Shown: positions 1,607 through 15,665 of the stretch, in pieces
Numbering within the stretch: position 1 is the first letter of the stretch
Layout: every line of letters begins with the position of its first letter
NCBI GenBank assembly: GCA_017470045.1
Contig: JAFUFG010000247.1
Location: 1-20,558 of the forward strand
DNA length: 20,558 nt
Reading direction: 5' to 3'
DNA from: Bacilli bacterium
GTDB taxonomy: Bacteria > Bacillota_I > Bacilli_A > RF39 > UBA660
Program-made: the position numbers and the translations under genes
The notes under the pieces: generated by a model
Told to the model about the DNA's origin: nothing
Databases searched by the model: none
What the model saw: the letters and a program-made list of their open reading frames with translations, nothing else

Positions 1607-1654
1607 CGATTATGATAAGATTATTTTGTATACTAGGAAAGTAGGATGAGAATT

Positions 1655-3697
1655 ATGGCTACGGAAAAAAGGGGTCTATTGAAAAACATAATTAATATTC
1701 TTTTAGATATATTGATGGTATTATTTGGAATCATATTAGTTATATCGATTTATACCAATTTACAAGTACATGTATTTGGAAGTAAATATGCTAGTTTTTT
1801 TGGATATTCTAATTTTGAGGTTCAAACTGGTAGTATGGAACCAACAATATCAGCTGGAGATTGGATTGTAGTTAAGCAAACAAAACAAGTTAAGTTAGAT
1901 GATATTATCACTTATGAGAAAGAAAATGAGTTTATTACTCATCGTGTTATTGAAGCTTATAAGGGTACGTATATTACTAAGGGAGATGCGAATAATAGTA
2001 AAGATGAAGCAATTAACCAAGATCAAGTAGTTGGTACTGTTGTTAAAATCTTACCTGGATTCGGAATTATTCGTAAAACAATCTTTAATCCAATTGTATT
2101 AATTGCTTTAATGGTTACGTTATATCTTTTAGGATATGCTTTAAAAGGAAACAAAAAGAATAGTGAAGAAGGATTACTAAGCAAGTTGTTCGATACTAAG
2201 ATGGTTCCTAAGAAGCCTATTAAAATTAAAAAGAAAGTTGTTGTTCAACCTGTTATTGAAGAAAAAGTTGTTGAAGTCGAAGAAGTAGAAGAGGTTGACG
2301 AGGAAATACCTGAGGTAGAGGAAATCACTGAAGAAGTGGTAGAAGAAACAATGGAAGAAACAGTGGATGAAATGGAAGAAGTTAATGAGGATACTGTTTC
2401 TGAGGTTGTAGAAGAACCAATTAGTGAAGAAGATATGAATCGTACGATGTATTTCCGTATGGTTAATGTTAGTAAGGAAGATTTAAATAGTAATTCTATT
2501 GAGGTACCTCAAGAAGAAGTAGAAGAAACAATGGAAGAAGAAAAGGTTGTTGATGAAAAACCTGAAAACTCTGAAGTTGCTGATAAGATTAAATTAATTC
2601 AAAATAAACGTAAGAAATATAAAAATATTATCGATAAGGTAATGTACATTAAGTCTGAAGAGTTAAATGAAATTATTGATATTCTTAATAATAATGATCG
2701 ATATAAAGTTAATGAATCTACAATTAAAGATGAGTTATTAAAAGATTATATCGATGGAAAATATTATAATTACTGTGGAAATGTTAATGTCGAATATAAT
2801 GGTAAGAATATGCTTTCTCGTATTGATGGAGAATTAAAAGCAAAAGGAGATTCTTTAGTAAAAAAATATAAAGGCAGCGATAGTAATTATCCAGGCAAAG
2901 TAAAGAAATTTGTTAATCTATTCTTATTAATTAATAGTTTAGAAGAGTTGTTCCGTAAGGATGATGACTCAAAAGCAAAAAGAGATAATTATACCAATAA
3001 GATTAATAAATATTTAGGAAATCTTACTAATTTCGAATTAAAGAATATGGTTTCTAAGATTTTAAAGGTTCAACGTATTTATGCCAGTGTTGTTAGTCAT
3101 TTATTAAATGAACAAGCCTCTACTACTTTCCAATTAGAGTTTTCTAAGATAACTGGTCATAAAGAATTAGTTGGAGCGGATTTAAATCATAATATTCAAT
3201 TTAGTAAAGTATATAGCGATTATATTGTTAAAAAGACTTATAACGATGGAACTGTAGCAGAAGATAAGTCTATTATCCTAGTAAACTTATTATTAGTAGA
3301 AGTTTTAAAAGATATGTATGCTGGAGATTTCTTTAAGAATTATATTATTCCAATCGCTGGAAGTATTTATTCTAAAACGAATAAGATGGATCGTACTTTT
3401 GATTTACTTGGAGATGAATATGCGAAAAAGAATATTATTGTATTAGTTGAATATCAAGATATGATTGAGAATAAGATAGTATTAAAAGCTTTGAAGAAGG
3501 CTGGATACCGATTCGCAGTAGTGTTCCGTATGGGAGATGAAATTAAAGATAAAGATCAAAAGATTTTAAGTATTGCGGATTATGCTTTTGTGGATAAGAA
3601 AGAAACGAATATCTTGAATAATTTACCAGAAGAGTTAAAGAATTCTATTATTCATGATGATATCTTAAAAAAATTAAATGTTGATGGGGGTAAATAA
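1655..3697 (+). CDS. SipW/ER-type signal peptidase fused to a long acidic linker and a large cytoplasmic domain
   Basis: Residues 1-165 form a type I signal peptidase of the archaeal/ER (S26B, SipW) kind, which cuts signal peptides outside the membrane with a Ser-His arrangement. Seen here: a membrane segment at about 9-33; catalytic Ser60 in TGSMEPTI; His96 in ITHRV; the TKGDANNSKD box with Asp111 and Asp117; and a second membrane segment at 144-165. SipW proteins normally stop near 190 residues. This one continues with a Glu/Val-rich linker (about 190-306) and a further domain of about 370 residues (307-680), mostly helical, ending in an alternating strand/helix section (about 590-660). Topology puts this tail in the cytoplasm. 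The last part faintly resembles an EAL-type barrel in strand pattern only; I do not assign it. The start at 1655 follows AGG at 1643-1645 by nine bases; 1646 is possible. An AAA+ ATPase gene starts two bases after the stop. Confidence 0.9.
   Translation: MATEKRGLLKNIINILLDILMVLFGIILVISIYTNLQVHVFGSKYASFFGYSNFEVQTGSMEPTISAGDWIVVKQTKQVKLDDIITYEKENEFITHRVIEAYKGTYITKGDANNSKDEAINQDQVVGTVVKILPGFGIIRKTIFNPIVLIALMVTLYLLGYALKGNKKNSEEGLLSKLFDTKMVPKKPIKIKKKVVVQPVIEEKVVEVEEVEEVDEEIPEVEEITEEVVEETMEETVDEMEEVNEDTVSEVVEEPISEEDMNRTMYFRMVNVSKEDLNSNSIEVPQEEVEETMEEEKVVDEKPENSEVADKIKLIQNKRKKYKNIIDKVMYIKSEELNEIIDILNNNDRYKVNESTIKDELLKDYIDGKYYNYCGNVNVEYNGKNMLSRIDGELKAKGDSLVKKYKGSDSNYPGKVKKFVNLFLLINSLEELFRKDDDSKAKRDNYTNKINKYLGNLTNFELKNMVSKILKVQRIYASVVSHLLNEQASTTFQLEFSKITGHKELVGADLNHNIQFSKVYSDYIVKKTYNDGTVAEDKSIILVNLLLVEVLKDMYAGDFFKNYIIPIAGSIYSKTNKMDRTFDLLGDEYAKKNIIVLVEYQDMIENKIVLKALKKAGYRFAVVFRMGDEIKDKDQKILSIADYAFVDKKETNILNNLPEELKNSIIHDDILKKLNVDGGK
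2331..2539 (+). repeat. In-frame direct repeat within the acidic linker
   Basis: A 29-base segment at 2331-2359 recurs at 2511-2539 with two mismatches, exactly 180 bases later and in the same frame. Both copies encode VEETMEE. They bracket the Glu-rich linker of the fused signal peptidase, which suggests that the linker grew by duplication or can change length by recombination. Confidence 0.75.
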
Positions 3698-3699
3698 TT

Positions 3700-5265
3700 A
3701 TGAACACATTTTTAAGATTTTTTTACGAATTTGTTTCTGTATTCTTTGATGGATTAGTATCCATTGTAAATGGTTTTGCGTCTGGTGTTGTTAAAATGTT
3801 TAGTTTTAGTGAATACGGAAGAATCATTGAAAATTATAAGGAATACTTCAATGGAAAAGAAAAAGTATTTGTTATTATGGCTGTAGTATTCCTTGTTTTG
3901 ATTGTTTTAATTATTGGTGGATTAATCTTCTTATTTATTAAGAAACTATTAAGAAGAATGCAAAATCGTTATAGTAAGGAAGAAATGCTTGAAGAGATTG
4001 GTAGTTTAAATGATCAAGTCTTAAAGCTAAAGAAACAAAATGATGAACTTATGGCTATGAAAGTATCTCAACTTGGTTTAAAGCCTGATGGTGATACAGA
4101 AGGCGATGGTAAGGATGCTGCTAAGAAAGATGCAAAAGATGGTGAAGCAGCAGAAGAAGGGGAAGAGGAAGATCCAGGAGAAGCTGGAATTCGTTTCCCT
4201 AAACTTTGTTCTTATGATGAACAATTTAAAGGTAAAAAACCTAAGAATTATGATACTGGTTATACGTTACCAGAATTAATTGATAACTTCAGATGTTTCT
4301 CTGCAAGTCAATTACATTTATATTATGACTTCACGATTTTAAGACCGTTCTTTGCAGGACTTGCTTGTGGTAAGTTAATTATCCTACAAGGTATTTCTGG
4401 TACTGGTAAAACATCTCTAGCTTATGCTTGGGGTAAATTTGTTAAGAATGATTCCTGTGTTACTGCAGTTGAGCCTTCTTGGCGTGATAAATCGGATTTC
4501 TTAGGTTACTTCAATGAACTTACTAAGAAGTTTAATGAAACTCGTGCTTTAGGTGAGATTTATGTAGCTGGTTATGATGACAATGTTCATACAATCATCC
4601 TAGATGAAATGAACCTAGCTCGTGTTGAGTATTATTTCGCCGATTTATTATCTATTTTGGAAATGCCTAACCGTCAAGAGTGGTTGGTTGATATCGTATC
4701 TTCCTCTTGGCCAAAGGATCCAAAGAATATTGTTGCTGGTAAGTTAAGACTTCCAGGAAACTTATGGTATATTGGAACCATCAATAATGATGACTCAACC
4801 TTCATGGTTACTGATAAGGTTTACGATAGAGCTATGCCTCTTGATATCAATACAAAAATTGATCCATTTACTTGTCGTGAGCAAGAAGCAGTAGAAGTTA
4901 GTGCTACTTACTTAGAAAGTTTATTTGCAGAGGCTATTGAAAAGAATCCGGTTTCTCCAAAAGGATTAGAAGCTATTCGTGAAATCGATGATTATGTTAC
5001 GGAACATTTCCGTATTGCTTTTGGTAACCGTATTATGAAACAATTAAATGTCTTTGCCCCAGTATATGTTGCTTGTGGTGGTAAAGAGATGGAAGCAATT
5101 GATTACTTTATTGCTAGAAAGATTTTACGTAAGTTTGACCAATTAAGTGTTAACTTTATACGTGATGAATTAAATCCATTTATCGCATTCTTAAATAAGA
5201 AGTACGGTAAAGGTACAATGAAAGAATGTATCGCTTTCATTGAAAACTTAAAGAAGAGTATATAG
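3700..5265 (+). CDS. Membrane-anchored McrB-like AAA+ ATPase
   Basis: This is an ATP- or GTP-driven ring ATPase tethered to the membrane. From the N-terminus: an amphipathic or membrane-dipping stretch (about 5-34), a clear membrane segment (about 56-80) followed by KKLLRRMQNR, which places the rest in the cytoplasm, a short coiled coil (95-122), an acidic low-complexity linker (128-162), and the AAA+ module (about 190-450). Its Walker A is GISGTGKTS (231-239), its Walker B is HTIILDEMN (297-305, D302/E303), its sensor 1 is GTINNDDSTF (359-368), and YDRAMP (375-380) is a likely arginine finger. The SWRDKSDFLGYFN block (260-272) is typical of the McrB branch. The gene sits between a signal peptidase and a DUF2357-like gene, with 2 and 12 bases of spacing, so one transcript and probably one complex. 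There is no DNA-binding N-terminal domain as in restriction McrB. The true substrate is unknown. Confidence 0.88.
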   Translation: MNTFLRFFYEFVSVFFDGLVSIVNGFASGVVKMFSFSEYGRIIENYKEYFNGKEKVFVIMAVVFLVLIVLIIGGLIFLFIKKLLRRMQNRYSKEEMLEEIGSLNDQVLKLKKQNDELMAMKVSQLGLKPDGDTEGDGKDAAKKDAKDGEAAEEGEEEDPGEAGIRFPKLCSYDEQFKGKKPKNYDTGYTLPELIDNFRCFSASQLHLYYDFTILRPFFAGLACGKLIILQGISGTGKTSLAYAWGKFVKNDSCVTAVEPSWRDKSDFLGYFNELTKKFNETRALGEIYVAGYDDNVHTIILDEMNLARVEYYFADLLSILEMPNRQEWLVDIVSSSWPKDPKNIVAGKLRLPGNLWYIGTINNDDSTFMVTDKVYDRAMPLDINTKIDPFTCREQEAVEVSATYLESLFAEAIEKNPVSPKGLEAIREIDDYVTEHFRIAFGNRIMKQLNVFAPVYVACGGKEMEAIDYFIARKILRKFDQLSVNFIRDELNPFIAFLNKKYGKGTMKECIAFIENLKKSI

Positions 5266-5277
5266 GAGTGAGGGAGC

Positions 5278-6417
5278 ATGGCTAAGAAGAAGTCTACTTT
5301 TACAGAGAGTATTGATACTGAAATCAAAGCAAAAAAAGATTCTTTTATTAATTCTCTTGGATCAGAAATGTATTATGAGTCGGACTTAAACGGTGGATCA
5401 ATGTCATTCGAGTGGCTTGATCAAATCGAATTTGCCGCTCCTTTTATTGATAATGTTGTTCGTATTCCAAAATTATCTTTGGTAAAACAAGAGATTATTG
5501 TTAATGCGGAAAGAACAAAAAAAGTTACTGTTGAAAGTATCAAAGATTTAGCAAAGCATCCTAATTATGTTGATAAAATGGATCCTGCTACTGGTGATGT
5601 TCAACCTAATCGTATCTTAAATGTTATTTCGGAAGAGACATATAACATTTATGAAAATCGTTTCTTATATACTTTAATTCATGATATGGAAACGTTTATT
5701 CGTAAAAAAGAAGACGAATTAAAGAACTTAAAGTTGAGTACTCATAAGTTCTTGGAGTATAGTGGAAGTACTAAGACTGATATGGAAAATGTTAGTATTG
5801 AATTACGTATTACTTCTGATACATTTCCTTCGGATGTTGCGGATAAGAAATTAAAAGATGAAATTCGACAAGTTAAGGTTCGACTAAAGAGAATAAATGA
5901 TTTTATTTCTAGTTGGCATCGTAGTGCGATGTTTAAGGAATTAGATAAGGCTCATGTTCATTATTTAAATCCTCCAATTAAGAAAACTAACATTTTCTTA
6001 AAGAATCCGAATTTCCAAGTAGCTCAGAAATTATATGACTACTTATTAAAACAAAATGGTAGTGACGATGATAACTCTAGTGCTAATTTAGAAAAAAACA
6101 GTGATCCTTTTCAAGGATTCTTAGATCATTCTTTCTTAATAGACTTCTGTGTTTTAGATTCTGTCTCTAGAAAAAAACGTGATCAGAAAGAGAAGATGAG
6201 TTACTATGCCATTCTATTACTAAAGGAAGAAATTCATAGAACACTTGATATGCTAATGAGTGCTGGAATTGACATTAGTGATGATGAACTTATAAAAATG
6301 ATTGCAGAAGAACTTAAGAAAGATCGTAATAATCGACTAGTTGGTGTAGATGATGTTAAGAAAAAGTTTAAGACTGCTATCGACGAATATATGGAAAGGA
6401 TGCAAGATTACTTGTAG
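5278..6417 (+). CDS. DUF2357-like partner of the McrB-type ATPase, no nuclease domain seen
   Basis: The 379-residue protein is soluble and cytosolic, with no signal peptide or membrane segment. The stretch from PNRILNVISEETYNIYENRF (110-129) into LYTLIHDME resembles the conserved ENRF region of DUF2357 proteins, which are commonly encoded next to McrB-like AAA+ ATPases and related to the N-terminal part of McrC. The remainder is helical and charged (lysine and glutamate rich), with a low-complexity SDDDNSS region near 262-270. I cannot find a PD-(D/E)xK nuclease signature, so restriction is unlikely. By analogy with McrC it may stimulate or position the ATPase encoded 12 bases upstream. The ribosome binding site AGGAGTGAGGGAG (5265-5276) is strong. 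The DUF2357 assignment is from remembered motif and gene context and needs a profile search. Confidence 0.72.
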   Translation: MAKKKSTFTESIDTEIKAKKDSFINSLGSEMYYESDLNGGSMSFEWLDQIEFAAPFIDNVVRIPKLSLVKQEIIVNAERTKKVTVESIKDLAKHPNYVDKMDPATGDVQPNRILNVISEETYNIYENRFLYTLIHDMETFIRKKEDELKNLKLSTHKFLEYSGSTKTDMENVSIELRITSDTFPSDVADKKLKDEIRQVKVRLKRINDFISSWHRSAMFKELDKAHVHYLNPPIKKTNIFLKNPNFQVAQKLYDYLLKQNGSDDDNSSANLEKNSDPFQGFLDHSFLIDFCVLDSVSRKKRDQKEKMSYYAILLLKEEIHRTLDMLMSAGIDISDDELIKMIAEELKKDRNNRLVGVDDVKKKFKTAIDEYMERMQDYL

Positions 6418-6426
6418 TGATTAAAT

Positions 6427-6999
6427 ATGAAGAAATTTTTTGAAAGCAAAGCATTTAAAATATGTCGTTCTGTTGTTAATATTGCTGTTGTGGTATTAGT
6501 AATAGCATTTGTACTAATTGTTTGTCTACAACGATTTAGTAATAATTGTATTTCCTTCTTTAATTATCGTATGTTTACGGTAATTTCTGGATCCATGGAG
6601 CCAAAATATAAAGTAGGGGACGTTTTAGTTGCCAAAGAAGTAGCTCCTGAGAAAGTTAAAGTTGGGGATACGATTTCTTATTTGGGTAAAGTTGGTCAAT
6701 TTAATGATAAGGTTATTACCCATGAAGTTGTTGAAATAACGAAAGATGAGAATGGAAAATTATTGTTCCATACAAAAGGTCTAGCTAATTTGGTAGAAGA
6801 TCCTATTGTTGGGCAAGACCAGTTATATGGTGTAGTAGTTTATCGATCATTTATAATGTCATCTATTTATAAGATTGTTGGTACTACCGTTGGTATGTTT
6901 ATCTTTATTATTATTCCTATATTTTATATATTAGGATCTGAAATTATTACAGCAATGTTAGAAAAAGAAGAAGAAAGAAGAAGTAAGTCTAAAAAATAA
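6427..6999 (+). CDS. sipW: SipW-type signal peptidase I (second copy)
   Basis: The 190-residue protein is the usual size of a SipW/ER-type signal peptidase, a membrane enzyme that removes signal peptides on the outer face. It has a membrane segment at about 14-36, catalytic Ser56 in VISGSMEPKY, His99 in ITHEV, a TKG box at 116-118, a second membrane segment at about 150-176, and a basic cytoplasmic tail (RRSKSKK). In the TKGD-A-N box the Asp found in the other peptidase of this operon (Asp111 there) is Leu119 here, while the later Asp (Asp125) is kept. This may alter activity or shift the acidic role to Asp125. No clear Shine-Dalgarno sequence precedes it; translation probably depends on ribosomes leaving the upstream gene, whose TAG ends nine bases earlier. 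It probably processes the secreted proteins encoded around it. Confidence 0.93.
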   Translation: MKKFFESKAFKICRSVVNIAVVVLVIAFVLIVCLQRFSNNCISFFNYRMFTVISGSMEPKYKVGDVLVAKEVAPEKVKVGDTISYLGKVGQFNDKVITHEVVEITKDENGKLLFHTKGLANLVEDPIVGQDQLYGVVVYRSFIMSSIYKIVGTTVGMFIFIIIPIFYILGSEIITAMLEKEEERRSKSKK

Positions 7000-7031
7000 T
7001 CTTTTTATCAAGTAGAGAGGAGGGAAAACTT

Positions 7032-8246
7032 ATGGATCAAAAAAAGCGTATCTATTTAAAACTTAATTTGGTTTCGCTATTTTTCATAGCTGTTTCCCTA
7101 ATCTCTGTTACTTTAGCTTGGTTTGCTTATAGTGGACTTGCGAAAGTAGATACGGAAATTGATGTTAAGACTTGGTATATTGAATTCCAGAAAGGGGAAG
7201 AAGCAGTAAGTAATAATATTGTTATTTCTTTATCAGATATCTCTCCTGGAATGGATTTGGTAAAGGAAACTGTCAAGATTATGAATAAAGGAGACTCTGA
7301 TGCTCAATTAAGTTATTCGATTGTTTCTGCTAATATTATGGGAGAAGAATTAGATAGTACGAATGGTTCAGAATACTTGGAAGATAAGTTAAGTCATGAT
7401 TATCCATTTCATATTAATTTAAATCTTGATAAGAATTTTGCTTTATCTGGTGAAGAATTTAGTCAATTTGATTTATCTGTCTCTTGGCCATTGGATTCTG
7501 GAGATGATCATTTTGATAGTGAGTGGGGTACAAAAGCTTATCAATATCAAAAATCAGAGCAGGCAAAGGTTGCTGCTGATAATACGTATGTGGCAAAGCC
7601 ATCTATTAAAATCGTAATTAGTGTTAAGGCAGAACAGTTACTTACTTTAAGTACTTCTCCTGATCCAGATTATGAGTTAGGAGCATTAGTATTATTTGAT
7701 ATTTACCAAAAGATGAGATGTACTACTTTAAGTAATACTTGTCTTAGATCTCATGTTATTGATTCCAATAATAAGTTGGGGGATACAACAGTTTCTTTAA
7801 TTTCTGATTTATATGGAACTTATGGTAGTGGAACATTTGAGAATTATAATAGTTTACTTGCAAGTAATGTTAGTGGATGGAATGTTACGACTCGAGCTTT
7901 GACTGCAGATGATTTATTAAGTGTAATATCTGGTGATGTTATTAATTCTATTATTATTGGAGATCAAGTATCGAATCGTATTATTGGTGATGTAAAATAC
8001 GGAACACGTGCTAATCAAGTTCGTACCTGGACAGTCGGTAAGAATGGATTGTTCCGATTCAATAATGATTCTTATCCATATCTTGTAACGAATAAATGTT
8101 ATTGGACTAATACTGCTTATGATGAAGATCGTGGTTTTGCATTAACAAAGATTGATGATACTTATTCTAAGGTTTATGGTGAAGGTAAGACTGATAATTG
8201 TAGCGTAGTTCCAGTAATCGTTGCGAATAAAACGGATTTAAAATAA
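7032..8246 (+). CDS. Secreted protein with SipW-type signal peptide, TasA/camelysin-like N-terminal part
   Basis: The 404-residue protein is exported and has a positively charged start, a hydrophobic core (about 11-27) and a probable cut after Ala29 (SVTLA, then WFAYSG). This matches the other secreted proteins here. Residues about 30-200 look like an extracellular beta-sandwich (alternating strands, SDISPGMDLVKETVKIMNKG), as in TasA/camelysin-type proteins. The C-terminal part (about 215-404) is different: it has four cysteines, a CYWTNTAYDEDRGFALT segment and an ending SVVPVIVANKTDLK. This ending resembles the RPV-like end of C-type-lectin-fold or DUF6273-type surface domains; that resemblance is tentative. 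The ribosome binding site GAGGAGGG is strong. As the last gene of the peptidase operon it may be a tip, adaptor or first substrate. It has no sorting signal or C-terminal anchor. Confidence 0.82.
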   Translation: MDQKKRIYLKLNLVSLFFIAVSLISVTLAWFAYSGLAKVDTEIDVKTWYIEFQKGEEAVSNNIVISLSDISPGMDLVKETVKIMNKGDSDAQLSYSIVSANIMGEELDSTNGSEYLEDKLSHDYPFHINLNLDKNFALSGEEFSQFDLSVSWPLDSGDDHFDSEWGTKAYQYQKSEQAKVAADNTYVAKPSIKIVISVKAEQLLTLSTSPDPDYELGALVLFDIYQKMRCTTLSNTCLRSHVIDSNNKLGDTTVSLISDLYGTYGSGTFENYNSLLASNVSGWNVTTRALTADDLLSVISGDVINSIIIGDQVSNRIIGDVKYGTRANQVRTWTVGKNGLFRFNNDSYPYLVTNKCYWTNTAYDEDRGFALTKIDDTYSKVYGEGKTDNCSVVPVIVANKTDLK

Positions 8247-8273
8247 GGTAATTTGAATTACCTTATTTTTTTT
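8244..8273 (+). terminator. Intrinsic terminator ending the peptidase/AAA+ operon
   Basis: A perfect 9-bp stem (8244-8252 with 8257-8265) closes on a TTGA loop, followed by eight T. The 5' arm begins with the TAA stop codon of the upstream gene. Confidence 0.92.
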
Positions 8274-8280
8274 GCATAAT

Positions 8281-8310
8281 AAAAAGGAACATTGCTGTTC
8301 CTTGTTTTTT
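8281..8310. terminator. Bidirectional terminator between convergent genes
   Basis: AAGGAAC (8284-8290) pairs with GTTCCTT (8297-8303) around an ATTGCT loop. T follow on the plus strand (8305-8310) and an A run precedes it (8281-8285), giving U on the minus transcript. It can end the minus-strand gene at 8309 and back up the plus-strand terminator. Confidence 0.85.
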
Positions 8311-8929
8311 AATTTAATTTTTGTTCGAATGTCATGTTAACTTGCATTTGTAATGTATTGGTATCTGCGTTGATTCCTAATAGGGTATCGTCATCGTCAT
8401 CCATTGTTTCGTTGTTACCTTCATACCATTCGAAGTAGATTCTTATGGTCATTGGTTCAAATGCAAAGTTTTCTGTATTTTTATCGTAATTTAAGCTTCC
8501 TTGAATTGTATTATTTTGAATTACGTTTTGAGTGATTTGATCTCCTTCTTCGTAATCACTGTCAAGAATTGCATATTTTGTAATCATAATATCTGGCATA
8601 TTTTGGTTTACTACAGATAATGAAATATTATAATTAAATGATAGTTCTACATTTGATGGATCAATGTCTATATCAAAATATCCTTTAGATGATGGAGCTA
8701 ACTTATTACTTTTTACGTTTGCATTTTCTTCTACTACTGGTGTTAATGTTATTGATGAAGTATTACCGTTTGTGATATCTGTTTCATTTACTAATATTTG
8801 CCACTTACTAAATGATACTTCAACGTTTCCAGTTGTATCGGCAACGTATCTTGAATAAGTATTGCTCATCAAGCATAATGTGATAGATAGAGACATTAGA
8901 ACCACCAAGAAACGAAACTTAGTGTTCAT
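8309..8929 (-). CDS. Secreted TasA/camelysin-like protein, SipW-type signal peptide
   Basis: The 206-residue exported protein has a short basic start, a hydrophobic core (about 6-22) and a likely cut after Ser26 (NTYS, then RYVADTTG). After it come FSKWQILVN and a series of beta strands with many Asn/Asp/Thr residues, an acidic patch (MDDDDDT) and a strand-like end (LQMQVNMTFEQKLN). The size and fold pattern suit a small TasA/camelysin-type subunit. It is the only gene on the minus strand, convergent with the peptidase operon and divergent from the subunit operon. The ribosome binding site AAGGGAG lies eight bases before the start, and a well-spaced promoter lies 30-58 bases upstream. The stop TAA nearly abuts the shared terminator. 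There are no mature cysteines and no cell-wall anchor. It could be a minor or capping subunit, or one under separate control. Confidence 0.85.
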   Translation of the reverse strand: MNTKFRFLVVLMSLSITLCLMSNTYSRYVADTTGNVEVSFSKWQILVNETDITNGNTSSITLTPVVEENANVKSNKLAPSSKGYFDIDIDPSNVELSFNYNISLSVVNQNMPDIMITKYAILDSDYEEGDQITQNVIQNNTIQGSLNYDKNTENFAFEPMTIRIYFEWYEGNNETMDDDDDTLLGINADTNTLQMQVNMTFEQKLN

Positions 8930-8958
8930 AAGAATTACTCCCTTCTTATCTTAATTTA

Positions 8959-8987
8959 ATCATACTAGTATTATGTCCACTTTGCAA
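8959..8987 (-). promoter_or_regulatory. Sigma-A promoter of the minus-strand secreted gene
   Basis: Read on the minus strand, TTGCAA (8987-8982), 17 bases, then TATGAT (8964-8959). Transcription would start near 8952, leaving a leader of about 23 bases that contains the AAGGGAG ribosome binding site. Confidence 0.72.
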
Positions 8988-8993
8988 CATTTA

Positions 8994-9017
8994 ACACTTT
9001 AATATTTTGTAAAGTGT
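8994..9017. promoter_or_regulatory. Inverted repeat next to the minus-strand promoter (possible operator)
   Basis: ACACTTTA (8994-9001) and TAAAGTGT (9010-9017) form a perfect 8-bp dyad with an 8-base spacer. It begins seven bases upstream of the minus-strand -35 box, a place suited to an activator or repressor. Confidence 0.5.
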
Positions 9018-9105
9018 GTCTAGTATTTGTAAAATAATTTTACGATTTTGATTGTCAAGATTAAATGTATAATTTTTTCTAAAATGTGTATACTATTTGT
9101 ATAGT
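9011..9105 (+). repeat. Imperfect 25-base direct repeat, two copies
   Basis: Positions 9011-9035 and 9081-9105 match at 20 of 25 positions, sharing the cores TGTGT and TATTTGTA, at a spacing of 70 bases. The second copy contains the small dyad ACTAT-TTGT-ATAGT (9092-9105). Such pairs can be tandem regulator sites, though A/T richness makes chance similarity possible. Confidence 0.5.
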
Positions 9106-9143
9106 CCTTTTGTGTGCAACTTTTTTCGTTTTTTCCTACTTAG

Positions 9144-9161
9144 AATAAGGTTTTCCTTATT
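9144..9161. promoter_or_regulatory. Dyad overlapping the -35 of the subunit operon (possible operator)
   Basis: AATAAGG, a TTTT spacer, and CCTTATT form a perfect 7-bp dyad. Its last two bases are the first two bases of the TTGACT -35 box. A further CCTTAT half-site lies beyond the start point at 9223-9228. Binding here would compete with or touch RNA polymerase. Confidence 0.5.
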
Positions 9162-9188
9162 GACTTTTTATTTTTGCGTGTATATAAT
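9160..9188 (+). promoter_or_regulatory. Strong sigma-A promoter of the subunit operon
   Basis: TTGACT (9160-9165), exactly 17 bases, TATAAT (9183-9188): only one base departs from consensus, the best promoter in the window. Start of transcription would be near 9195, giving a leader of about 68 bases. Confidence 0.9.
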
Positions 9189-9196
9189 TAAATTGT

Positions 9197-9231
9197 ATTA
9201 TAAAGGATACTAGGATGGAGTACCTTATAAT
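9197..9231 (+). promoter_or_regulatory. Hairpin in the 5' leader of the subunit operon
   Basis: Near the very 5' end of the predicted transcript, ATTATA/TATAAT, AGG/CCT and TAC/GTA pair to give 12 base pairs interrupted by single bulged A at 9203 and 9207, with a 9-base loop TAGGATGGA (9211-9219). It may protect the transcript 5' end or bind a regulator. It has no U run and is too small for a known metabolite riboswitch. Confidence 0.5.
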
Positions 9232-9262
9232 TATTTAGATAGTTAGAAGGGTAGGAATTCGT

Positions 9263-9958
9263 ATGGAGAAGAAGGTTACGTTAAGCTCAGAAAAAATGAA
9301 ACGTGAAAAGAAAATACGTAAGTTCTTCAAAATCGCGTTGCTATGTCTTTTGCTTCTATTAATTATAATTTATTTCATTGTGGGTATTATTTATAATAGT
9401 GGAAATTTTAGCATTACGATGGACAAAAACCTGTATTTTGAGAAGAATTTGATCATATACGACAGTCCTATATATAAGGTATATAGAACTGAGTTGTATG
9501 CTAAAGCGCCAAATACTTTTGATAACATTTCTTACAAGTGGCTTCCTGATAATCTTGATGATTTGGGTGGTGGATCCCACAATGGTCAAAATTATCTATC
9601 CTATACTTTCTTTATTGAAAATATGGGAAAAGATATTTCTGATTATTGGAGTGAAGTCATCGTTGATGACGTAATAAGGAACGTGGATGAAGCTGTAAGA
9701 ATTAGAGTCTATAGGGATGGCGAACCTGTCACGTATGCTAAATTATCTGCAAGGGGAACTGCTGAGCCAGAAACAGTTCCGTTTGATTCGGATGAATTAG
9801 TTGTCCGTGAACATATCACTAATTTCAAGCCAGGAGACATTAGTAGATATACGATTGTTTTATGGATTGAAGGTAGTGATCCAGAATGCACTGATAACAT
9901 TCTGGGTGGAGAATTCAAAGTCCATATGGATTTCAAATCAGAATTTGTAGAAGATTAG
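9263..9958 (+). CDS. Membrane-anchored extracellular beta-rich protein, possible fibre anchor
   Basis: The 231-residue protein has a basic start (KMKREKKIRKFF) and one long hydrophobic segment (about 23-46). That segment lacks the [ST]-x-[AS] cut site seen in its neighbours, so it is probably kept as a signal anchor. The outside part (47-231) is beta-rich with a YTFFIENMGKD strand and ends with LWIEGSDPECTD (200-211). That is the same R-x-x-(I/V)-x-x-WIEG-x-D theme found near the end of the three subunit paralogues encoded downstream. It is the first gene of the operon, behind the strongest promoter, and its codons are more mixed (ATA, AGG, GGG, GCG) than those of the next two genes, suggesting lower output per transcript. 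By position it recalls TapA in the B. subtilis tapA-sipW-tasA operon, but no sequence homology is claimed. Confidence 0.78.
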   Translation: MEKKVTLSSEKMKREKKIRKFFKIALLCLLLLLIIIYFIVGIIYNSGNFSITMDKNLYFEKNLIIYDSPIYKVYRTELYAKAPNTFDNISYKWLPDNLDDLGGGSHNGQNYLSYTFFIENMGKDISDYWSEVIVDDVIRNVDEAVRIRVYRDGEPVTYAKLSARGTAEPETVPFDSDELVVREHITNFKPGDISRYTIVLWIEGSDPECTDNILGGEFKVHMDFKSEFVED

Positions 9959-9973
9959 AAGGAGTAAAAAATT

Positions 9974-11254
9974 ATGGCTAAGAAGAAAAAAAGAGATAAC
10001 AAACATGAAAAACGCGTCAAGAAGCTCATTGTAGGAAGTTTCTTATGTGCAATTCTATTAGCAGTTTCAACATACGCATGGTTCATTGGTATGAGAACTG
10101 TTAACGTTTCTAGTTTCGATGTTTCAATCGCTGCTATTGAAGGATTATCATTATCTTTAAATGGTAAAGATTGGTCTGATACCGTAACTATTAACAAAGA
10201 TAATTACAATGATACTGAGAATACAGTATATGAAGGTAATACAAATACTTGGAGTGATGGTGGATTAATTCCTATGTCATCAGTTGGTAAAATTGATGGA
10301 ACATCATCAAGAATGGTTTTATTCGAAAAAGGATCATTAACGACAACACCTGGTGGATATCGTTTAATGGCTAGTCAAGTTCAAAATTCTGGCGAGAAAG
10401 AAGCAAAAGGTTATGTTGCTTTCGACTTATTTGTAAAGAACTTATCTGGTAACGAATATTATAGTGAAATGAACCAATTAAATGAAGAAGCAATTTACTT
10501 AACTACTGATTCAGAAGTTAAAGTTGCTCAAACTGGTGTAGCTAACACTGGTATTGAAAATAGTGTTCGTGTAGCATTTGCTCAAATCGGACGTGTAGTT
10601 GCTACTACTGATACACAAGCTACTATTACTGGTATCACTTGTAAATCTGAAAATGGTGTTACTGGTATCTGTGCTAACCGTGATGCTCAAATTTGGGAAC
10701 CAAATGATAAAGATCACGTACAAAATGCAATTAACTGGTATACAACTTCTTGTAAGAAGAGAACTGGTTCTGATGTAACAAATGCAGAATCTTATGGTAC
10801 TGCTTGTAAGACAGTTGAAGATGGACAAACTTATCATACATATGCAGTTAGTGGTGTAATTGATTATGCTCATAATGTAGATGTATATGATGGTGATGAT
10901 TATAATGGATATACTGGAAGTGTAGCTGATGCTGCTGCTGAAGGTAAATTAGTTGCATATCCATACTTCACTGATACTATGAAAAATTTATCTGGAGTTA
11001 ATAGACCAACATTCATTACTTTAGCTCCAAATAGTATTACTAAGATTAGAGTATATGTTTATATTGAAGGTCAAGATGTTGATAACTATGACTTTGCTTC
11101 ATTAGGAAAGAAAATTTCTGTAGCGTTTGGATTAACTAAGGAAAGATTCTTCGATGAAGATGTTAACTATGATAGTACTAATACTGCTACATTACCAGAT
11201 GATGTAATTAAGAATGCTGAGAATAGATCTACAGCTAATAACACTGGTGCTTAA
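9974..11254 (+). CDS. Probable major extracellular fibre subunit A (SipW-type signal peptide)
   Basis: The 426-residue protein has a basic start (MAKKKKRDNKHEKRVKK), a hydrophobic core (about 18-31) and a predicted cut after Ala35 (STYA, then WFIGMR). The mature part is beta-rich, with four cysteines in two close pairs (ITC...GIC and TSC...TAC), a QIWEPND motif just after the first pair, a YPYFTDTMKNLSG segment, and TKIRVYVYIEGQDVDNYD near residues 354-372. It is a close paralogue of the next gene: nineteen residues from STYA through FDV are identical. Codon choice is narrow (TTA, GGT, GCT, ACT, GTT, AGA/CGT), as in strongly expressed genes. The AGAAGGAG site begins at the upstream stop codon. 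A large hairpin follows the stop. A structural fibre role like TasA is inferred, not shown. There is no sorting signal. Confidence 0.82.
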   Translation: MAKKKKRDNKHEKRVKKLIVGSFLCAILLAVSTYAWFIGMRTVNVSSFDVSIAAIEGLSLSLNGKDWSDTVTINKDNYNDTENTVYEGNTNTWSDGGLIPMSSVGKIDGTSSRMVLFEKGSLTTTPGGYRLMASQVQNSGEKEAKGYVAFDLFVKNLSGNEYYSEMNQLNEEAIYLTTDSEVKVAQTGVANTGIENSVRVAFAQIGRVVATTDTQATITGITCKSENGVTGICANRDAQIWEPNDKDHVQNAINWYTTSCKKRTGSDVTNAESYGTACKTVEDGQTYHTYAVSGVIDYAHNVDVYDGDDYNGYTGSVADAAAEGKLVAYPYFTDTMKNLSGVNRPTFITLAPNSITKIRVYVYIEGQDVDNYDFASLGKKISVAFGLTKERFFDEDVNYDSTNTATLPDDVIKNAENRSTANNTGA

Positions 11255-11263
11255 TAAGAAATA

Positions 11264-11303
11264 ATAATACTATGGTAACCTGATAAAGGTTGCCTGGTAT
11301 TAT
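11264..11303 (+). other. Intra-operon hairpin between the two major subunit genes
   Basis: ATAATACTA pairs with TGGTATTAT (one G-T) and GGTAACC pairs with GGTTGCC (one T-G), with a single bulged T at 11273 and a TGATAAA loop (11281-11287). This 16-bp stem has no U run after it, so it is more likely a transcript-stabilising or processing element than a terminator. Confidence 0.72.
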
Positions 11304-11335
11304 GCTAAATAAATAAAATATATATGGAGGATTTT

Positions 11336-12658
11336 ATGGCTAAACAAAATAAAAAGCGCAATAAAAAGTTACGTAAGCTTATAGCTATCTGCTTAATTTG
11401 TGCAATTATTTTAACAGTTTCAACATACGCCTGGTTTATTGGTATGAGAACTGTAAATGTTTCTAGCTTTGATGTTGAAATCGCTACTACTGAAGGTCTA
11501 TTCCTTTCTATGGATGGTGAAGATTGGAGATACAATCTTGATGCTAGAAATGCTACTGCTTATGAAAAAAATACAAATACATGGGCAGAAGATGGTTTAA
11601 TCCCTATGTCTACTGTTGGAGATATGGATTCTGCTGCTTCTCGTATGAAATTATACGAAAAAGCATCTTTAACTACTACAAAAGGTGGTTATCGTTTACT
11701 TACTAGCCGTGTTGCTAACAATACTAAAACTGATGAAGATCATATTGGATATATTGAAGGTAAAGGATATGTTGCTTTCGATTTATTCGTAAAAAATATG
11801 TCTGGTAATGAATATTATGAGACAAATGAACCATTAAATGAAGAAAATATTTATTTAACTACAAACTCATCTGTATCTGTAGCATCTGGTGGTGTTGCTA
11901 ATACAGGTATTGAAAATAGTGTTCGTGTAGCTATCGTTCAAATCGGACGTGTAAAAGCTGATACTACTGATGTATCTACTATTACTGGTATCACTTGTGC
12001 TGATTCTGCTGAAGGTGCTACTACAAAAGTTACTGGAATTTGTCGTAACGCTCAAATTTGGGAACCAAATGATACAGCTCACGTACAAAATGCTATTAAC
12101 TGGTATAACACTTCTTGTTTACCAAGAAAAGAAGCTGGTACTGATGTAACTAATGCTTCTAGTTATGATACTACTGATGGTGCTAAATGTACTGCTGTAG
12201 CTAATGAAAATGCTTATCCAACATATGCTGTTACTAGAGCTTTAGCTGTTGCTGATAATGTAGATGTATATGATGGTGAAAAGTATAATACTTATACTGC
12301 TAACTCTGCTGATTATGCTACTTATAGTGCTGCAGAAGATAAGAGTGGTTATAAATTAGTAAATTATCCATATTTCACTGATACTATGAAAAATTTAACT
12401 GGTACTGCTAGACCTGCATTCATGTCTTTAGCTCCAAATAGTATCACTAAGTTAAGAGTTTATATCTTTATTGAAGGACAAGATGTTGATAACTATGACT
12501 TCGCTTCTTTAGGAAAGATGATTTCTGTTAACTTTGGATTCACTAAGGAAAGATATACTGAATCTGATGTTAACTATACTGGTCCTAATACTCAAATTAC
12601 ACCTAGTGCTGCAGAAGAAGAAGCTGCTAGAAATACTACAAACAATAGTGGTGAATAA
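11336..12658 (+). CDS. Probable major extracellular fibre subunit B (SipW-type signal peptide)
   Basis: The 440-residue protein is a tandem paralogue of subunit A and shares its whole architecture: basic start (MAKQNKKRNKK), hydrophobic core, predicted cut after Ala32 (STYA, then WFIGMR), two cysteine pairs (ITC...GIC and TSC...AKC), QIWEPNDTAHVQ, YPYFTDTMKNL and KLRVYIFIEGQDVDNYD. It differs by insertions in surface-loop regions (for example TKTDEDHIGYIEG and ADYATYSAAEDKSGY) and an Ala/Glu-rich C-terminal tail. An ATG at 11324 precedes the GGAGG site (11326-11330) and would place the ribosome binding site inside the gene. The ATG at 11336, five bases after it, matches the MAK start of the paralogue. 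Codons are as restricted as in subunit A. It is followed by a terminator-like hairpin, so it probably closes the abundant part of the transcript. Confidence 0.83.
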   Translation: MAKQNKKRNKKLRKLIAICLICAIILTVSTYAWFIGMRTVNVSSFDVEIATTEGLFLSMDGEDWRYNLDARNATAYEKNTNTWAEDGLIPMSTVGDMDSAASRMKLYEKASLTTTKGGYRLLTSRVANNTKTDEDHIGYIEGKGYVAFDLFVKNMSGNEYYETNEPLNEENIYLTTNSSVSVASGGVANTGIENSVRVAIVQIGRVKADTTDVSTITGITCADSAEGATTKVTGICRNAQIWEPNDTAHVQNAINWYNTSCLPRKEAGTDVTNASSYDTTDGAKCTAVANENAYPTYAVTRALAVADNVDVYDGEKYNTYTANSADYATYSAAEDKSGYKLVNYPYFTDTMKNLTGTARPAFMSLAPNSITKLRVYIFIEGQDVDNYDFASLGKMISVNFGFTKERYTESDVNYTGPNTQITPSAAEEEAARNTTNNSGE

Positions 12659-12675
12659 TTGAAATAACATTTTAG

Positions 12676-12713
12676 AATAAAGAGTAATTTATTTCAATTA
12701 CTCTTTATTTTAT
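12676..12713 (+). terminator. Attenuator-like hairpin after the major subunit genes
   Basis: A perfect 14-bp stem (12676-12689 with 12696-12709) has a TATTTC loop and only a short T-rich tail (TTTTAT, counting the last bases of the stem). It sits inside the operon, with the next ribosome binding site only six bases further on. Partial termination here would leave the downstream genes at a lower level. Confidence 0.75.
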
Positions 12714-12728
12714 ATAAGGTGGTGTTTT

Positions 12729-13871
12729 ATGAAAAAGGAAAATACTACAACTAAATCTGCTAGTGAGAGTAAGAAAAAGTTAATCACTAGAAAACGTTTG
12801 AAGTCTATGAGAGAAAATCGTGATAAAAGAGAACGCAAGAATATGGTTTTACTTGTGTTCTCTATCTTCTCGATGGGTGTCTTATTAATTTTTTCAGCGT
12901 ATGCTTGGTTTTCTACAGCATTGAATGTACAAGTTCGTACATTTAATATGGTTGTTACTCGAAATAGTGGTTTGACCATATCTTTGGATGGTATTACTTA
13001 TGATAGTTTTGTCGAAATATCAAAAACGATTTTGATTGATGAATTACAAAATACTTATCCAAATAATTTGAGTCAATGGGCATCTAATGGAATGATTCCA
13101 GTTTCTTCGAATGGTATTCCAAATAATGATACTTATTTCTTTGATATTTATTCTAGTAGTGGAGTTCGTTATAAGAATAAAGCTCGTGAAGTAGGATATT
13201 TAAGTACGATTCGAGAAAGAGAAGAATATCGTCGTTCTTTCAATAACTGGATTGCTTTTGATTTATTCTTAAAGAATGATACTGGTTCTCCTATATCTGA
13301 TAATTTATATTTAGATGAAGGTACTGGAATTACTTTTGATAAAGATGAAGTTTCAGAGGAAATGCAAGGCCTTGTTAATTCTGCACGTTTTGGATTTGCT
13401 AGAGTTGGTACTGTTCCTAAAGATACCGATCCTACTACGGTTCAAAATCTGCAATGCAATGGTGGATGTGAATCTATCATTTATGAACCGTATGATAAAG
13501 CTCATACAGAATTAAGTAAGGAACGTGCTAAGAAGTATGGATTACATCTACAAGATGGAACTTATTTTCCAACTTATGCTTACGTTAAACAAGGTGGTCC
13601 TTTTGCTATGCATGATACTATTTCTGGTGCCGCTAATTTAAATTTAGAATATTTTAAGTTACAGAATACTATTACAGATGACTCTTTACGTACTCCTTTG
13701 TTTGAATTACCTGATGGAGTTACTAAGATGAGAGTTTATGTATGGATAGAAGGTCAGGATATTGATAGTTTAGAGACAAATTCTCAGGGTGCTGAAATTA
13801 CGATTTCTATTAACTTTATTAAGGATACTCGTGGTTATGAAGCATTTAATCAATATTCTTTAAATCAATAG
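12729..13871 (+). CDS. Divergent third subunit paralogue, secreted (SipW-type signal peptide)
   Basis: The 380-residue protein has an unusually long basic N-terminal tail (about 40 residues, lysine and arginine rich), then a hydrophobic core (about 39-56) and a predicted cut after Ala59 (SAYA, then WFSTAL). The mature part follows the plan of the two genes before it: an SLDG strand, a GMIPVSSNG segment like GLIPMSSVG, WIAFDLFLKN like YVAFDLFVKN, one close cysteine pair (LQCNGGC) followed by IIYEPYDKAH, and RVYVWIEGQDIDS near the end. It lacks the second cysteine pair and most loop insertions. Codons are less restricted than in the major subunits, and an attenuator-like hairpin precedes it, so it is probably a minor subunit (base, tip or initiator). 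The ribosome binding site AAGGTGGTG ends close to the start. Confidence 0.8.
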   Translation: MKKENTTTKSASESKKKLITRKRLKSMRENRDKRERKNMVLLVFSIFSMGVLLIFSAYAWFSTALNVQVRTFNMVVTRNSGLTISLDGITYDSFVEISKTILIDELQNTYPNNLSQWASNGMIPVSSNGIPNNDTYFFDIYSSSGVRYKNKAREVGYLSTIREREEYRRSFNNWIAFDLFLKNDTGSPISDNLYLDEGTGITFDKDEVSEEMQGLVNSARFGFARVGTVPKDTDPTTVQNLQCNGGCESIIYEPYDKAHTELSKERAKKYGLHLQDGTYFPTYAYVKQGGPFAMHDTISGAANLNLEYFKLQNTITDDSLRTPLFELPDGVTKMRVYVWIEGQDIDSLETNSQGAEITISINFIKDTRGYEAFNQYSLNQ

Positions 13872-13894
13872 AATAAAAGTGGTAGGTGATACGT

Positions 13895-14050
13895 ATGAGA
13901 AAAAAAGTAGAAGAAGAAAAAGTTGGCTTTGACTTATCTACCTTAAGTTTGCAGGAATTAATTAATACTTATAAAAATATTACAGATTTCATTCAATATT
14001 TAGATGATAATAAAATAATCGTAGAAGAAAAGGAAAATGATGATGATTAA
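13895..14050 (+). CDS. Small acidic protein, translationally coupled, unknown function
   Basis: A 51-codon frame begins at ATG 13895 behind a good AGGTGAT ribosome binding site (13884-13890) and ends with TAA at 14048-14050, overlapping the start of the next gene by 14 bases. The product is charged and probably helical (LSTLSLQELINTYKNITDFI) with an acidic tail (VEEKENDDD). It has no signal peptide or membrane segment, so it is cytosolic. Its spacing of 23 bases from the upstream gene and overlap with the downstream gene support real translation, with coupling to the 542-residue protein. I do not recognise the family. It could be a small partner or adaptor of the downstream product. Confidence 0.7.
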   Translation: MRKKVEEEKVGFDLSTLSLQELINTYKNITDFIQYLDDNKIIVEEKENDDD

Positions 14051-15665
14051 TTTTTTAAACTTTATTGAAAAAGATGTTTCTGCTAAAAAGACATTAATTA
14101 GTTCTATGCCAACCAAAACCAAAACAAATATTAAAAAATTCAATGAAAATATCGATTCTGTTCGTGAAAAATATGAAGAATATCGTAATAGTGTTCGTAA
14201 TTATTTACTTGCGAAGAGTCGTTCCTTTGAAGTAAAAAGTTCAAAAGATGACATTGATCGATTAAGTGAAAAAGTAATTTCTTTGGAACGTGTTAAATTC
14301 TTATTGAATCCTTCTAATACATACTTTGAAAAGATGAGTTTTGATGAATTGTTATTTCAATTAAATAACTCTTATATGTTTAACTTTAATTCATTAAGTG
14401 ATGTTATTAATAGTTTCTTAGATAAATTTGAATTAGTAGGTGTTCGATTAAAGAGTGATGATTTTCATTATACTTGCTATGTACATGAATATATGTCTTC
14501 TTTCTTAGAAGTACGTTATAGTGATACAGAAGATAAAAAATATGCAAAAGTAAATGAAATTTTTGAACAAATTTATTGGGTTAATCCGGAATTGATTGAA
14601 CATATTGAACTTAATTTTAGGAGATTAATTCGTGAACATGAGAAGAAGTTCACTGCTTATATTGCTAGACGTCAAAAAGAAGTTATGGCGGAAAATGAAA
14701 TTAAGAATTATGTTCATTGTCAAGAAAAGTTAAAAGCTGCTCATATTGAATTAAATATGGCAAATAGTGAGAGTGTTGCTGATTTAGTAGAACTTGCTAA
14801 GACTAATGGTTTTGATATTAATCAATATATGCCTGAATCTAAGGTTCGTTCTACTGCTTATGAATCTTTAATTGCTCCTAGTGTTGATATTCATGATAAA
14901 AATAAAATGAATAAGGTATGTAGGGCATTAGAAAAATTAAAGAGTAATATTATTGAATTTAATAATTATAATGATTTTTTACCATTATTTACGGATTTTA
15001 AGGAATCCTATCAAGATTTATTAAATGTTGATACTAAGAAATATAATGGATTAAAGAGTATATTAGATCAAATTGTTTCAAAAGAGAAAGAATTGGATAA
15101 ATTAAATGGAAAGATTTTTGGTGGTAGACCAGGATTCTTTGAATTTAATAACGAAAAAGATCTTCGTAAATTAAAAGTTCAATCTGTTTTAAAAGCGAAA
15201 GAGCTTTATGAATTATACAAACAATATGATGTAGAATATTTTAAAATGCATGTTTTAAATATTATTAGTAATACAATGACTGTTGCGGATGTATTGAATC
15301 TATATTATAGTTTTGATTACTTTAAAAAGATTGCAATTCGTAAAGTATATGAGTTAGAGGATTATTCTGAAGTAATGAAATACAGTGATAATTTCTACTT
15401 ATATGCGACAGATCCTACGAATGTTATTATCGCAGGAATTCCAATCTTTGAGGATGCTGAAATTGCACGAATCATAGCTAATAAATATCGTTTGAATAAT
15501 ATTAAGATTACGGAAGATGATTTAGCTGCATCTGATGCTTTACTTTCTAAGATTAACTTAATTCTTAGAGTTGAGAAAATTGAGGACAGTAAAGAGATTG
15601 ATTTAGAAAAAATTTGGTTTATGGTTCAAGTCAATAAAATTGTGGCTAGTGAAGAAAAAAAATAG
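14037..15665 (+). CDS. Large helical cytosolic protein of unknown function
   Basis: The 542-residue product has no signal peptide and no membrane segment. It is lysine/glutamate rich and almost entirely helical in character, with likely coiled-coil stretches at about 30-90, 190-260 and 330-385. The last part (about 390-540) is more globular, with an ADVLNLYYSFDYFKK segment and a DPTNVIIAGIPIFEDAE strand region. No catalytic or nucleotide-binding motif is visible. It starts at one of three successive ATG codons (14037, 14040, 14043) behind AAAAGG, inside the end of the small upstream gene. Being a cytosolic protein in an operon of exported subunits, it may be a scaffold, an export chaperone, or a link to the membrane ATPase of the other operon; none of this is shown by sequence. 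A terminator overlaps its stop codon. Confidence 0.82.
   Translation: MMMINFLNFIEKDVSAKKTLISSMPTKTKTNIKKFNENIDSVREKYEEYRNSVRNYLLAKSRSFEVKSSKDDIDRLSEKVISLERVKFLLNPSNTYFEKMSFDELLFQLNNSYMFNFNSLSDVINSFLDKFELVGVRLKSDDFHYTCYVHEYMSSFLEVRYSDTEDKKYAKVNEIFEQIYWVNPELIEHIELNFRRLIREHEKKFTAYIARRQKEVMAENEIKNYVHCQEKLKAAHIELNMANSESVADLVELAKTNGFDINQYMPESKVRSTAYESLIAPSVDIHDKNKMNKVCRALEKLKSNIIEFNNYNDFLPLFTDFKESYQDLLNVDTKKYNGLKSILDQIVSKEKELDKLNGKIFGGRPGFFEFNNEKDLRKLKVQSVLKAKELYELYKQYDVEYFKMHVLNIISNTMTVADVLNLYYSFDYFKKIAIRKVYELEDYSEVMKYSDNFYLYATDPTNVIIAGIPIFEDAEIARIIANKYRLNNIKITEDDLAASDALLSKINLILRVEKIEDSKEIDLEKIWFMVQVNKIVASEEKK

Follow-up and report, generated by a model that had tools for sequence, protein, structure and literature searches.

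Among described systems, CoCoPALM, the McrBC enzymes and the tapA-sipW-tasA operon of Bacillus subtilis come closest to the gene set treated here, in which two SipW-type signal peptidases (SipW1 and SipW2), a membrane-anchored McrB-like AAA+ nucleoside triphosphatase (NTPase; called the ATPase below), a DUF2357 protein and a secreted protein are encoded together on a stretch of 20,558 nucleotides from a Bacilli bacterium (contig JAFUFG010000247.1; the whole stretch is referred to as the window). CoCoPALM was named by Bell et al. (2024, eLife; PMC11090510) and deferred by them to later work. The passages concerned describe an NTPase of the NxD branch of McrB-like proteins, the N-terminal transmembrane part of which is homologous to FtsB and has a coiled coil, together with a DUF2357 partner often lacking a nuclease and signal peptidase genes nearby, and pilus assembly was proposed as the role. 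The NxD NTPase, the N-terminal membrane segment, the DUF2357 partner and a nearby signal peptidase were all found in the window; the module is of a kind already in print and its peptidase link is not wholly new. The same passages are silent on SipW, a term not in the main text of that paper, whereas the peptidases here are of SipW type. New here are the fusion of SipW to an EAL-fold domain, a putative adaptor, the loss of the nuclease, a family of substrates that tracks SipW and sister systems in which SipW is absent and giant exported proteins are present. No paper on the SipW link, the EAL-fold adaptor or the substrates, and none taking up CoCoPALM again, was found in the open-licence literature, and papers could exist elsewhere.

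As with McrBC of Escherichia coli, the profile of the ATPase matches McrB and the structural model of the DUF2357 protein resembles McrC, the latter likeness extending to the McrC chain of Thermococcus gammatolerans. Unlike McrBC, the module has no nuclease domain, carries a membrane anchor and lies beside genes for peptidases and secreted proteins. The tapA-sipW-tasA operon has one SipW and no known ATPase. The window resembles it in encoding a peptidase of SipW type and secreted proteins whose cut site has an aromatic residue close by, a trait given for the TasA signal in the relevant passage of PMC10269814; it differs in that its peptidases lie below the cut-off of the Bacillus SipW equivalog and in that no TasA relative was found by sequence.

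The window opens with the end of the EF-Ts gene, a small membrane protein gene and frr, which are followed on the + strand (1655-8246) by a tight run of five genes for SipW1, the AAA+ protein, the DUF2357 protein, SipW2 and the first secreted protein. The corresponding open reading frames (ORFs) lie at 1646-3697 (683 amino acids), 3700-5265, 5278-6417, 6427-6999 and 7032-8246, and are separated by 2, 12 and 9 bases and then by 32 bases before the secreted protein gene. These genes and the first three gaps had been described in a first-pass annotation made from the letters of the window, and both were confirmed. The start of SipW1 is probably the in-frame ATG at 1655, which lies near the start of most homologues in alignment A2. 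The features of this operon are as follows.

1655..3697, + strand: SipW1, a SipW-type signal peptidase (about residues 1-185 of the ORF starting at 1646; TIGR02228, 76.4 bits; two transmembrane segments) with an acidic cytosolic linker and a predicted EAL-fold C-domain
2438..2458, + strand: linker motif, residues 265-271 of SipW1, standing out in the variable acidic linker (alignment A2)
2618..3694, + strand: C-domain, a helical part and then a predicted degenerate EAL-fold barrel (model residues 169-349)
3700..5265, + strand: membrane-anchored McrB-like AAA+ NTPase with an NxD (Asn-Asn-Asp) sensor motif, from PDB profile, transmembrane segment and alignments
4390..4413, + strand: Walker A motif, residues 231-238, invariant columns in alignments A1 and A6
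4783..4791, + strand: NxD motif, residues 362-364, followed by a second Asp; N362, N363 and D364 invariant (motif as defined in the passage of Bell et al., 2024)
5278..6417, + strand: DUF2357 protein with a McrC-type N-terminal domain, no nuclease domain and a predicted helical C-terminal tail, from Pfam and predicted structure
6427..6999, + strand: SipW2, a second SipW-type signal peptidase (TIGR02228, 75.4 bits)
7032..8246, + strand: first secreted protein, matching the rule for SipW-type signals described below; A29-W30, W48 and P72-G73-M74 invariant in alignment A7; its family lies beside the module in 73 loci

Linkage of the ATPase pair to SipW

The window was compared with the best 80 of at least 554 related loci, giving 81 sequences in all. 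The first-pass annotation had taken SipW1 for a plain peptidase. That part of it stands, but about half of the protein proved to be a cytosolic extension that had been missed, the last 180 residues of which show an EAL fold in the predicted structure, the barrel probably being truncated. The C-domain was found directly upstream of the ATPase in all 78 loci with upstream sequence, the other three of the 81 being contig ends. In 24 of the 78 it is fused to SipW and in 54 it stands alone, mostly as a protein of 290-360 amino acids (two were cut by contig ends and one has 651), and 26 of these 54 loci have a separate SipW1-type gene upstream, usually four genes before the ATPase. A gene that is fused in one lineage and separate in neighbouring ones is a classic sign of joint function of the products, and the peptidase and the ATPase module are therefore considered functionally linked.

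The order of the module genes is likewise maintained. Of the related loci with an AAA+ ORF of more than 450 amino acids, 77 have the DUF2357 gene downstream, 74 have SipW2 and 73 the first secreted-protein family, part of the losses being contig ends. This order is not chance.

At least 8000 scored relatives were obtained from each of two AAA+ queries, and the ATPases were sorted into classes by length and score. Loci L081-L110 were excluded from the neighbourhood counts as too short, and L111-L130 were hand-picked from the lower-scoring classes, which makes totals over all classes those of a non-random sample. SipW was found within 6 kb of the ATPase at 87 of 92 loci of the class of 480-570 residues, that is, at 60/60 window-type loci (the window included) and at 27/32 more distant ones, and at 8/8 of the class of 570-700 residues. 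The 87 of 92 weigh in favour of a link, even though genomes hold few SipW matches (1-9 among 97 genomes of one order). The pair occurring mostly without signal peptidases, which would have spoken against the proposal of the first-pass annotation, was thus not seen in this clade. Window-type loci served to build both the SipW and the DUF2357 profile, and distant members were missed, the DUF2357 protein being recognised in only one of the eight loci of the 570-700-residue class. In a tree of 79 sequences the SipW-associated classes are placed together on one side, with support 91/92; the tandem class, in which two ATPases flank the DUF2357 gene, makes up a single group (99/95).

A further line of evidence comes from the secreted proteins. 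A family seeded with three secreted proteins of the window reached 309 proteins in four profile rounds. It is present in 35 of 40 distant loci (L157-L196), always within 6 kb of the ATPase, and its presence follows that of SipW, with 35/35 loci that have SipW and 0/5 that do not (Fisher p 1.5e-6, uncorrected for kinship). A family grown over four rounds could drift toward a shared signal, yet no member was found in the SipW-less loci. The family was not found in L111-L130, which include the 570-700-residue class that has SipW; in L121, of that class, the upstream exported proteins are of SipW type by eye and lie outside the family. Overall, the ATPase pair and processing by SipW are supported as functionally linked, and owing to the C-domain fusion and to the secreted family tracking SipW the link is firmer than had been supposed in the first-pass annotation.

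At the level of genomes, the ATPase was detected in 28 of 97 genomes of one order and in 84 of 392 genomes of one phylum (E ≤ 1e-10), and each of nine genomes examined had a single DUF2357 match.

Proteins of the core operon

The profile of the ATPase, built from 24 relatives, matched three PDB sequences at E ≤ 0.01, all of them E. coli McrB (E about 2e-4), while the protein alone passed no Pfam AAA cut-off. Residues N362 and D364 are invariant in 24/24 and 32/32 aligned relatives. By hydropathy, a single hydrophobic segment near residue 50 fits a transmembrane helix, in keeping with the membrane-anchored protein of the McrB branch first described from the window; a probably spurious second call, at residue 211, falls within the AAA+ domain. 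One or more predicted transmembrane segments precede the AAA+ domain at all 92 class I/II places. The anchor was rejected as a mark of SipW linkage, every ATPase class having a predicted N-terminal transmembrane segment. No Pfam domain over the cut-off was found in the N-terminal part, nor was a known nucleic-acid specificity domain found in the module. The ATPase is 72% identical in one related locus (L002), against 81% for frr and 85% for EF-Ts, and 52% identical in another (L077), against 56% for EF-Ts; from these two loci it appears to evolve slowly, being nearly as conserved as EF-Ts. A relative sharing 72% identity with a bacterial ATPase was also met in record P0306, labelled as the protist Anaeramoba ignava, and is likely to come from a symbiont or a contaminant.

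Both peptidases score above the cut-off (51.85) of NCBIfam TIGR02228, the SipW/archaeal-type signal peptidase family, and both miss by far the cut-off of 190 of the Bacillus SipW equivalog NF046067 (59.3 bits for SipW1 and 67.6 for SipW2). In SipW1, S63, H99, D114 and D120 are each kept in 20/20 relatives. In SipW2, S56, H99 and D125 are kept in 34/34, and residue 119, which matches the first Asp of SipW1, is Asp in none of the 34. The distant loci gave 25 SipW proteins upstream and 31 downstream, every one of them with the Ser and His, and the idea of one degenerate peptidase per module was accordingly rejected. Since Ser and His are kept throughout the relatives, SipW1 and SipW2 are both likely to be active enzymes. 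The absence from SipW2 of one of the two Asp of SipW1 might reflect a division of tasks or substrates between them. The linker motif of SipW1 was dismissed as a constant feature, a regular expression for it matching only 12 of the 24 fused proteins.

The DUF2357 protein of the window matches PF09823 with 43.5 bits (cut-off 23.3). All 47 DUF2357 proteins scanned match this family, and in 0/47 was a nuclease Pfam found at E ≤ 0.01. The longer DUF2357 proteins of the distant loci L165, L161, L113 and L128, and that of L121, also gave no nuclease Pfam. In the predicted structure the C-terminal part consists of helices only. Neither the Pfam scan of the 47 nor the predicted structure revealed a hidden nuclease of the PD-(D/E)xK type, the other finding that would have spoken against the proposal of the first-pass annotation. 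The McrC chains of E. coli and T. gammatolerans were the closest to the model by VIA-align, over residues 37-266 only; Foldseek alone gave no McrC match, and it was the re-ranking by VIA-align that put these chains on top. As judged by sequence and model together, the DUF2357 protein is well supported as a McrC-like protein without a nuclease.

The window member of the C-domain gave no Pfam match and stayed below the gathering cut-off of EAL (PF00563), and profile comparison yielded no residue-level alignment of the EAL catalytic or cyclic-di-GMP-binding residues. Because all sequence comparisons failed, kinship with EAL is claimed from the fold. Proteins of about 410 amino acids with weak EAL matches were seen in L134, L135 and L136, from three module-bearing genomes; that of L134 reads as a worn GGDEF-EAL protein.

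Exported proteins and sister systems

Beyond the core operon lie a terminator-like hairpin, a convergent gene and a second run of exported-protein genes that reaches the end of the window and is interrupted by one cytosolic protein gene.

8284..8303, both strands: terminator-like hairpin between the core operon and the convergent gene, from a pattern scan
8309..8929, - strand: convergent secreted protein with a SipW-type signal by the rule; in 57 loci its family is met at most six genes from the ATPase
9263..9958, + strand: membrane-anchored exported protein with one N-terminal transmembrane segment; no match to the signal rule
9974..11254, + strand: secreted protein of the co-occurring substrate family, by the signal rule; seed of the family hidden Markov model (HMM)
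11324..12658, + strand: secreted protein of the same family, by the signal rule; seed of the family HMM
12729..13871, + strand: secreted protein of the same family, by the signal rule; seed of the family HMM
14037..15665, + strand: cytosolic protein with no transmembrane segment and no Pfam family over the cut-off; relatives in 23 of the 81 sequences searched, the window included
15766..19239, + strand: large exported protein of 1157 amino acids, with signal rule match and N-terminal transmembrane segment
19255..19806, + strand: small exported protein, with signal rule match and N-terminal transmembrane segment
19816..20558, + strand: exported protein cut by the window end, with signal rule match and N-terminal transmembrane segment

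The SipW-type signal rule was matched by 8 of the 16 ORFs of the window, as compared with 23 of 382 ORFs in 400 kb of one relative's genome (Fisher p 4.5e-6); the rule is home-made, and many of the 23 control matches look spurious. The first-pass annotation had counted seven more substrates and two cytosolic proteins in the adjacent operons. Seven is reached only when counting to the window end, since 8309-13871 holds five ORFs with an N-terminal transmembrane segment, four of them with the signal, and only one protein free of transmembrane segments was found (14037-15665). It is conserved and sits among the substrate genes. Neither PDB nor family searches gave anything solid for TasA kinship of the secreted proteins.

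In the five loci of the main class that lack SipW (L182, L183, L193, L195 and L196), a membrane protein is encoded just upstream of the ATPase. The protein in this slot passes Pfam EAL in 4/5 and GGDEF in 3/5, and its gene is preceded by one for a protein of more than 2400 amino acids, with cadherin-like repeats in the one scanned (L183). Large exported proteins with a single anchor adjoin the two McrB-like membrane ATPases and the DUF2357 gene in the tandem class (L111-L118), and three of these neighbours, when scanned, gave one transglutaminase core Pfam, one MBG domain Pfam and one sub-threshold YDG match. As these SipW-less sisters adjoin large surface proteins, the AAA+/DUF2357 group may have exported surface proteins as its overall theme, the SipW systems being the main branch.

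Other variants were also seen. L126-L130 encode AAA+ proteins of about 900 amino acids, with a dozen predicted transmembrane helices before the AAA+ domain and a DUF2357 partner, that of L128 having sub-threshold zinc-ribbon matches. In L121 (5076-17001), exported proteins, SipW, the ATPase and a DUF2357-like protein are followed by an apparent ABC transporter pair, and then by two more proteins, one beta-helix-like (by sub-threshold Pfam) and one lipoprotein-like. In L162, L163, L164 and L167 the ATPase module is present twice on the contig, at a distance of about 15 kb, and a gene for a protein of about 2300 amino acids lies in between.

Possible roles of the module

This gut bacterium carries a conserved gene set in which a motor akin to a DNA-cutting defence enzyme seems to have shed its cutting part and become tied to enzymes that process exported surface proteins, a pairing that points to motor-driven construction of the cell surface. 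The reading that we hold to be probable, with some reserve, is that of a McrBC-derived machine relocated to the membrane, where it would serve exported surface proteins. Like McrB, the AAA+ protein would form a ring, here at the cytosolic face, into which the DUF2357 protein would insert like the McrC finger. The EAL-fold domain would act as an adaptor tying the ring to the peptidase, and hydrolysis of a nucleotide (GTP or ATP) would pace or power the steps by which surface proteins are processed, released or assembled; these proteins probably make up filaments or a coat.

A number of results weigh against this reading. SipW was found within 6 kb in 0/14 of the tandem class (the window-type ATPase of L006, split into two ORFs and so sorted there, being set aside) and at 0/4 places of the 900-residue class, and it is missing from five loci of the main class; sister clades do without SipW, and the membrane AAA+/DUF2357 pair is not specific to it. 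SipW itself occurs in 93 of the 97 genomes of the order as compared with 28 for the ATPase, showing it to be independent of the module and making its presence in a genome uninformative as evidence. The EAL assignment of the C-domain met with a series of negatives: only 2 of 52 members matched Pfam EAL at E ≤ 10 (best 0.011), and profile comparison failed both with three canonical EAL proteins and with the GGDEF-EAL proteins of the five loci without SipW (probability 0.7% for the latter). The secreted proteins had no PDB match to TasA at E ≤ 10, and Pfam camelysin was matched weakly (E 0.0062) by one of 25 members of the secreted family, for which reasons the fibre is a guess. Of the energy-driven module for a surface fibre proposed in the first-pass annotation, the link between the ATPase pair and SipW is retained, the fibre and the driving of release or assembly by the ATPase being conjectural.

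It could also be that the module builds nothing and is a quality-control device that removes from the membrane, for degradation, precursors of SipW substrates left uncleaved or the signal peptides cut from them. AAA+ rings commonly unfold or extract proteins, and this one is membrane-anchored and tied to a peptidase. However, no protease was found in the core set by Pfam and NCBIfam scans, and rings of the McrB branch are known as nucleic-acid translocases and not as unfoldases, which makes such a clean-up role rather unlikely.

A defence role, in which the pair would sense nucleic acid or infection as an anti-phage system of the McrBC/CoCoNuT kind and the SipW products would be an exported arm (a pilus or coat blocking phage), is unlikely in our view. 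It is favoured by descent from McrBC, by a match of the AAA+ domain to the PADLOC candidate defence family PDC-M26A (E 8e-38 in the window and 1.3e-42 in L183), which also tells against a machine for surface proteins, and by the passages of Bell et al. (2024; PMC11090510), which describe CoCoPALM within a survey of Type IV restriction; the patchy presence in 28 of 97 genomes suits defence as well as accessory surface traits. Against it stand the lack of a nuclease in the DUF2357 protein, the near-EF-Ts conservation of the ATPase at the two loci compared and the fixed gene order around secreted proteins. The two peptidases, the cytosolic protein and the first secreted protein had no PADLOC match at E ≤ 0.1, and the DUF2357 protein had only a weak one, to Cas2a (E 0.0059).

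The degenerate EAL receptors FimX and LapD act in the control of pili and of adhesin processing, and by analogy the EAL-fold domain might bind cyclic-di-GMP and so gate the peptidase and the ATPase. Unlike FimX and LapD, the C-domain has no sequence-level kinship found and is tied to a signal peptidase. Among 35 module-bearing genomes, only nine have a GGDEF match above 85 bits, most of the others showing one of about 64-82 bits in an ORF near 680 amino acids that we take to be GdpP, and six have EAL over the cut-off; this scarcity weakens the C-domain as a cyclic-di-GMP sensor in all hosts. With no conserved EAL catalytic motif alignable by sequence, a second-messenger switch is considered quite improbable. 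That the SipW genes only travel along with the ATPase pair is very improbable, for although SipW is common (93/97) and sister ATPase clades do without it, the fusion in 24 loci, the constant order in 78/78 and the substrates that track SipW (35/35 and 0/5) all speak against a neighbourhood without function.

Returning to the membrane machine for surface proteins, a wider version of it is proposed only tentatively, and we judge it somewhat less likely to be right than wrong. Nuclease-less membrane derivatives of McrBC would serve exported surface proteins as a general motor, both in Bacillota and in the wall-less Mollicutes. In their largest branch the motor would be coupled directly to the signal peptidase, through an EAL-fold adaptor or through a SipW with a tail, with nucleotide hydrolysis inside the cell pacing external processing or assembly. 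If this is so, the module would represent a new class of surface-assembly machine of Gram-positive bacteria, the SipW-less sisters of which would serve cadherin-like and other giant proteins. As one relative of the ATPase is found in Peloplasma aerotolerans, a named, cultured, wall-less mollicute, the module is open to testing.

These results bear on how SipW-sorted fibres assemble and on whether energy is spent in doing so. The NTPase likely descends from a DNA-cutting defence enzyme, and gene fusion joins it to the peptidase with which the process begins. If the reading is true, restriction machinery would have been reused for surface building, a function would be given to a large group of sequences, and defence catalogues may include relatives that are not defensive, the PADLOC label being a case in point.

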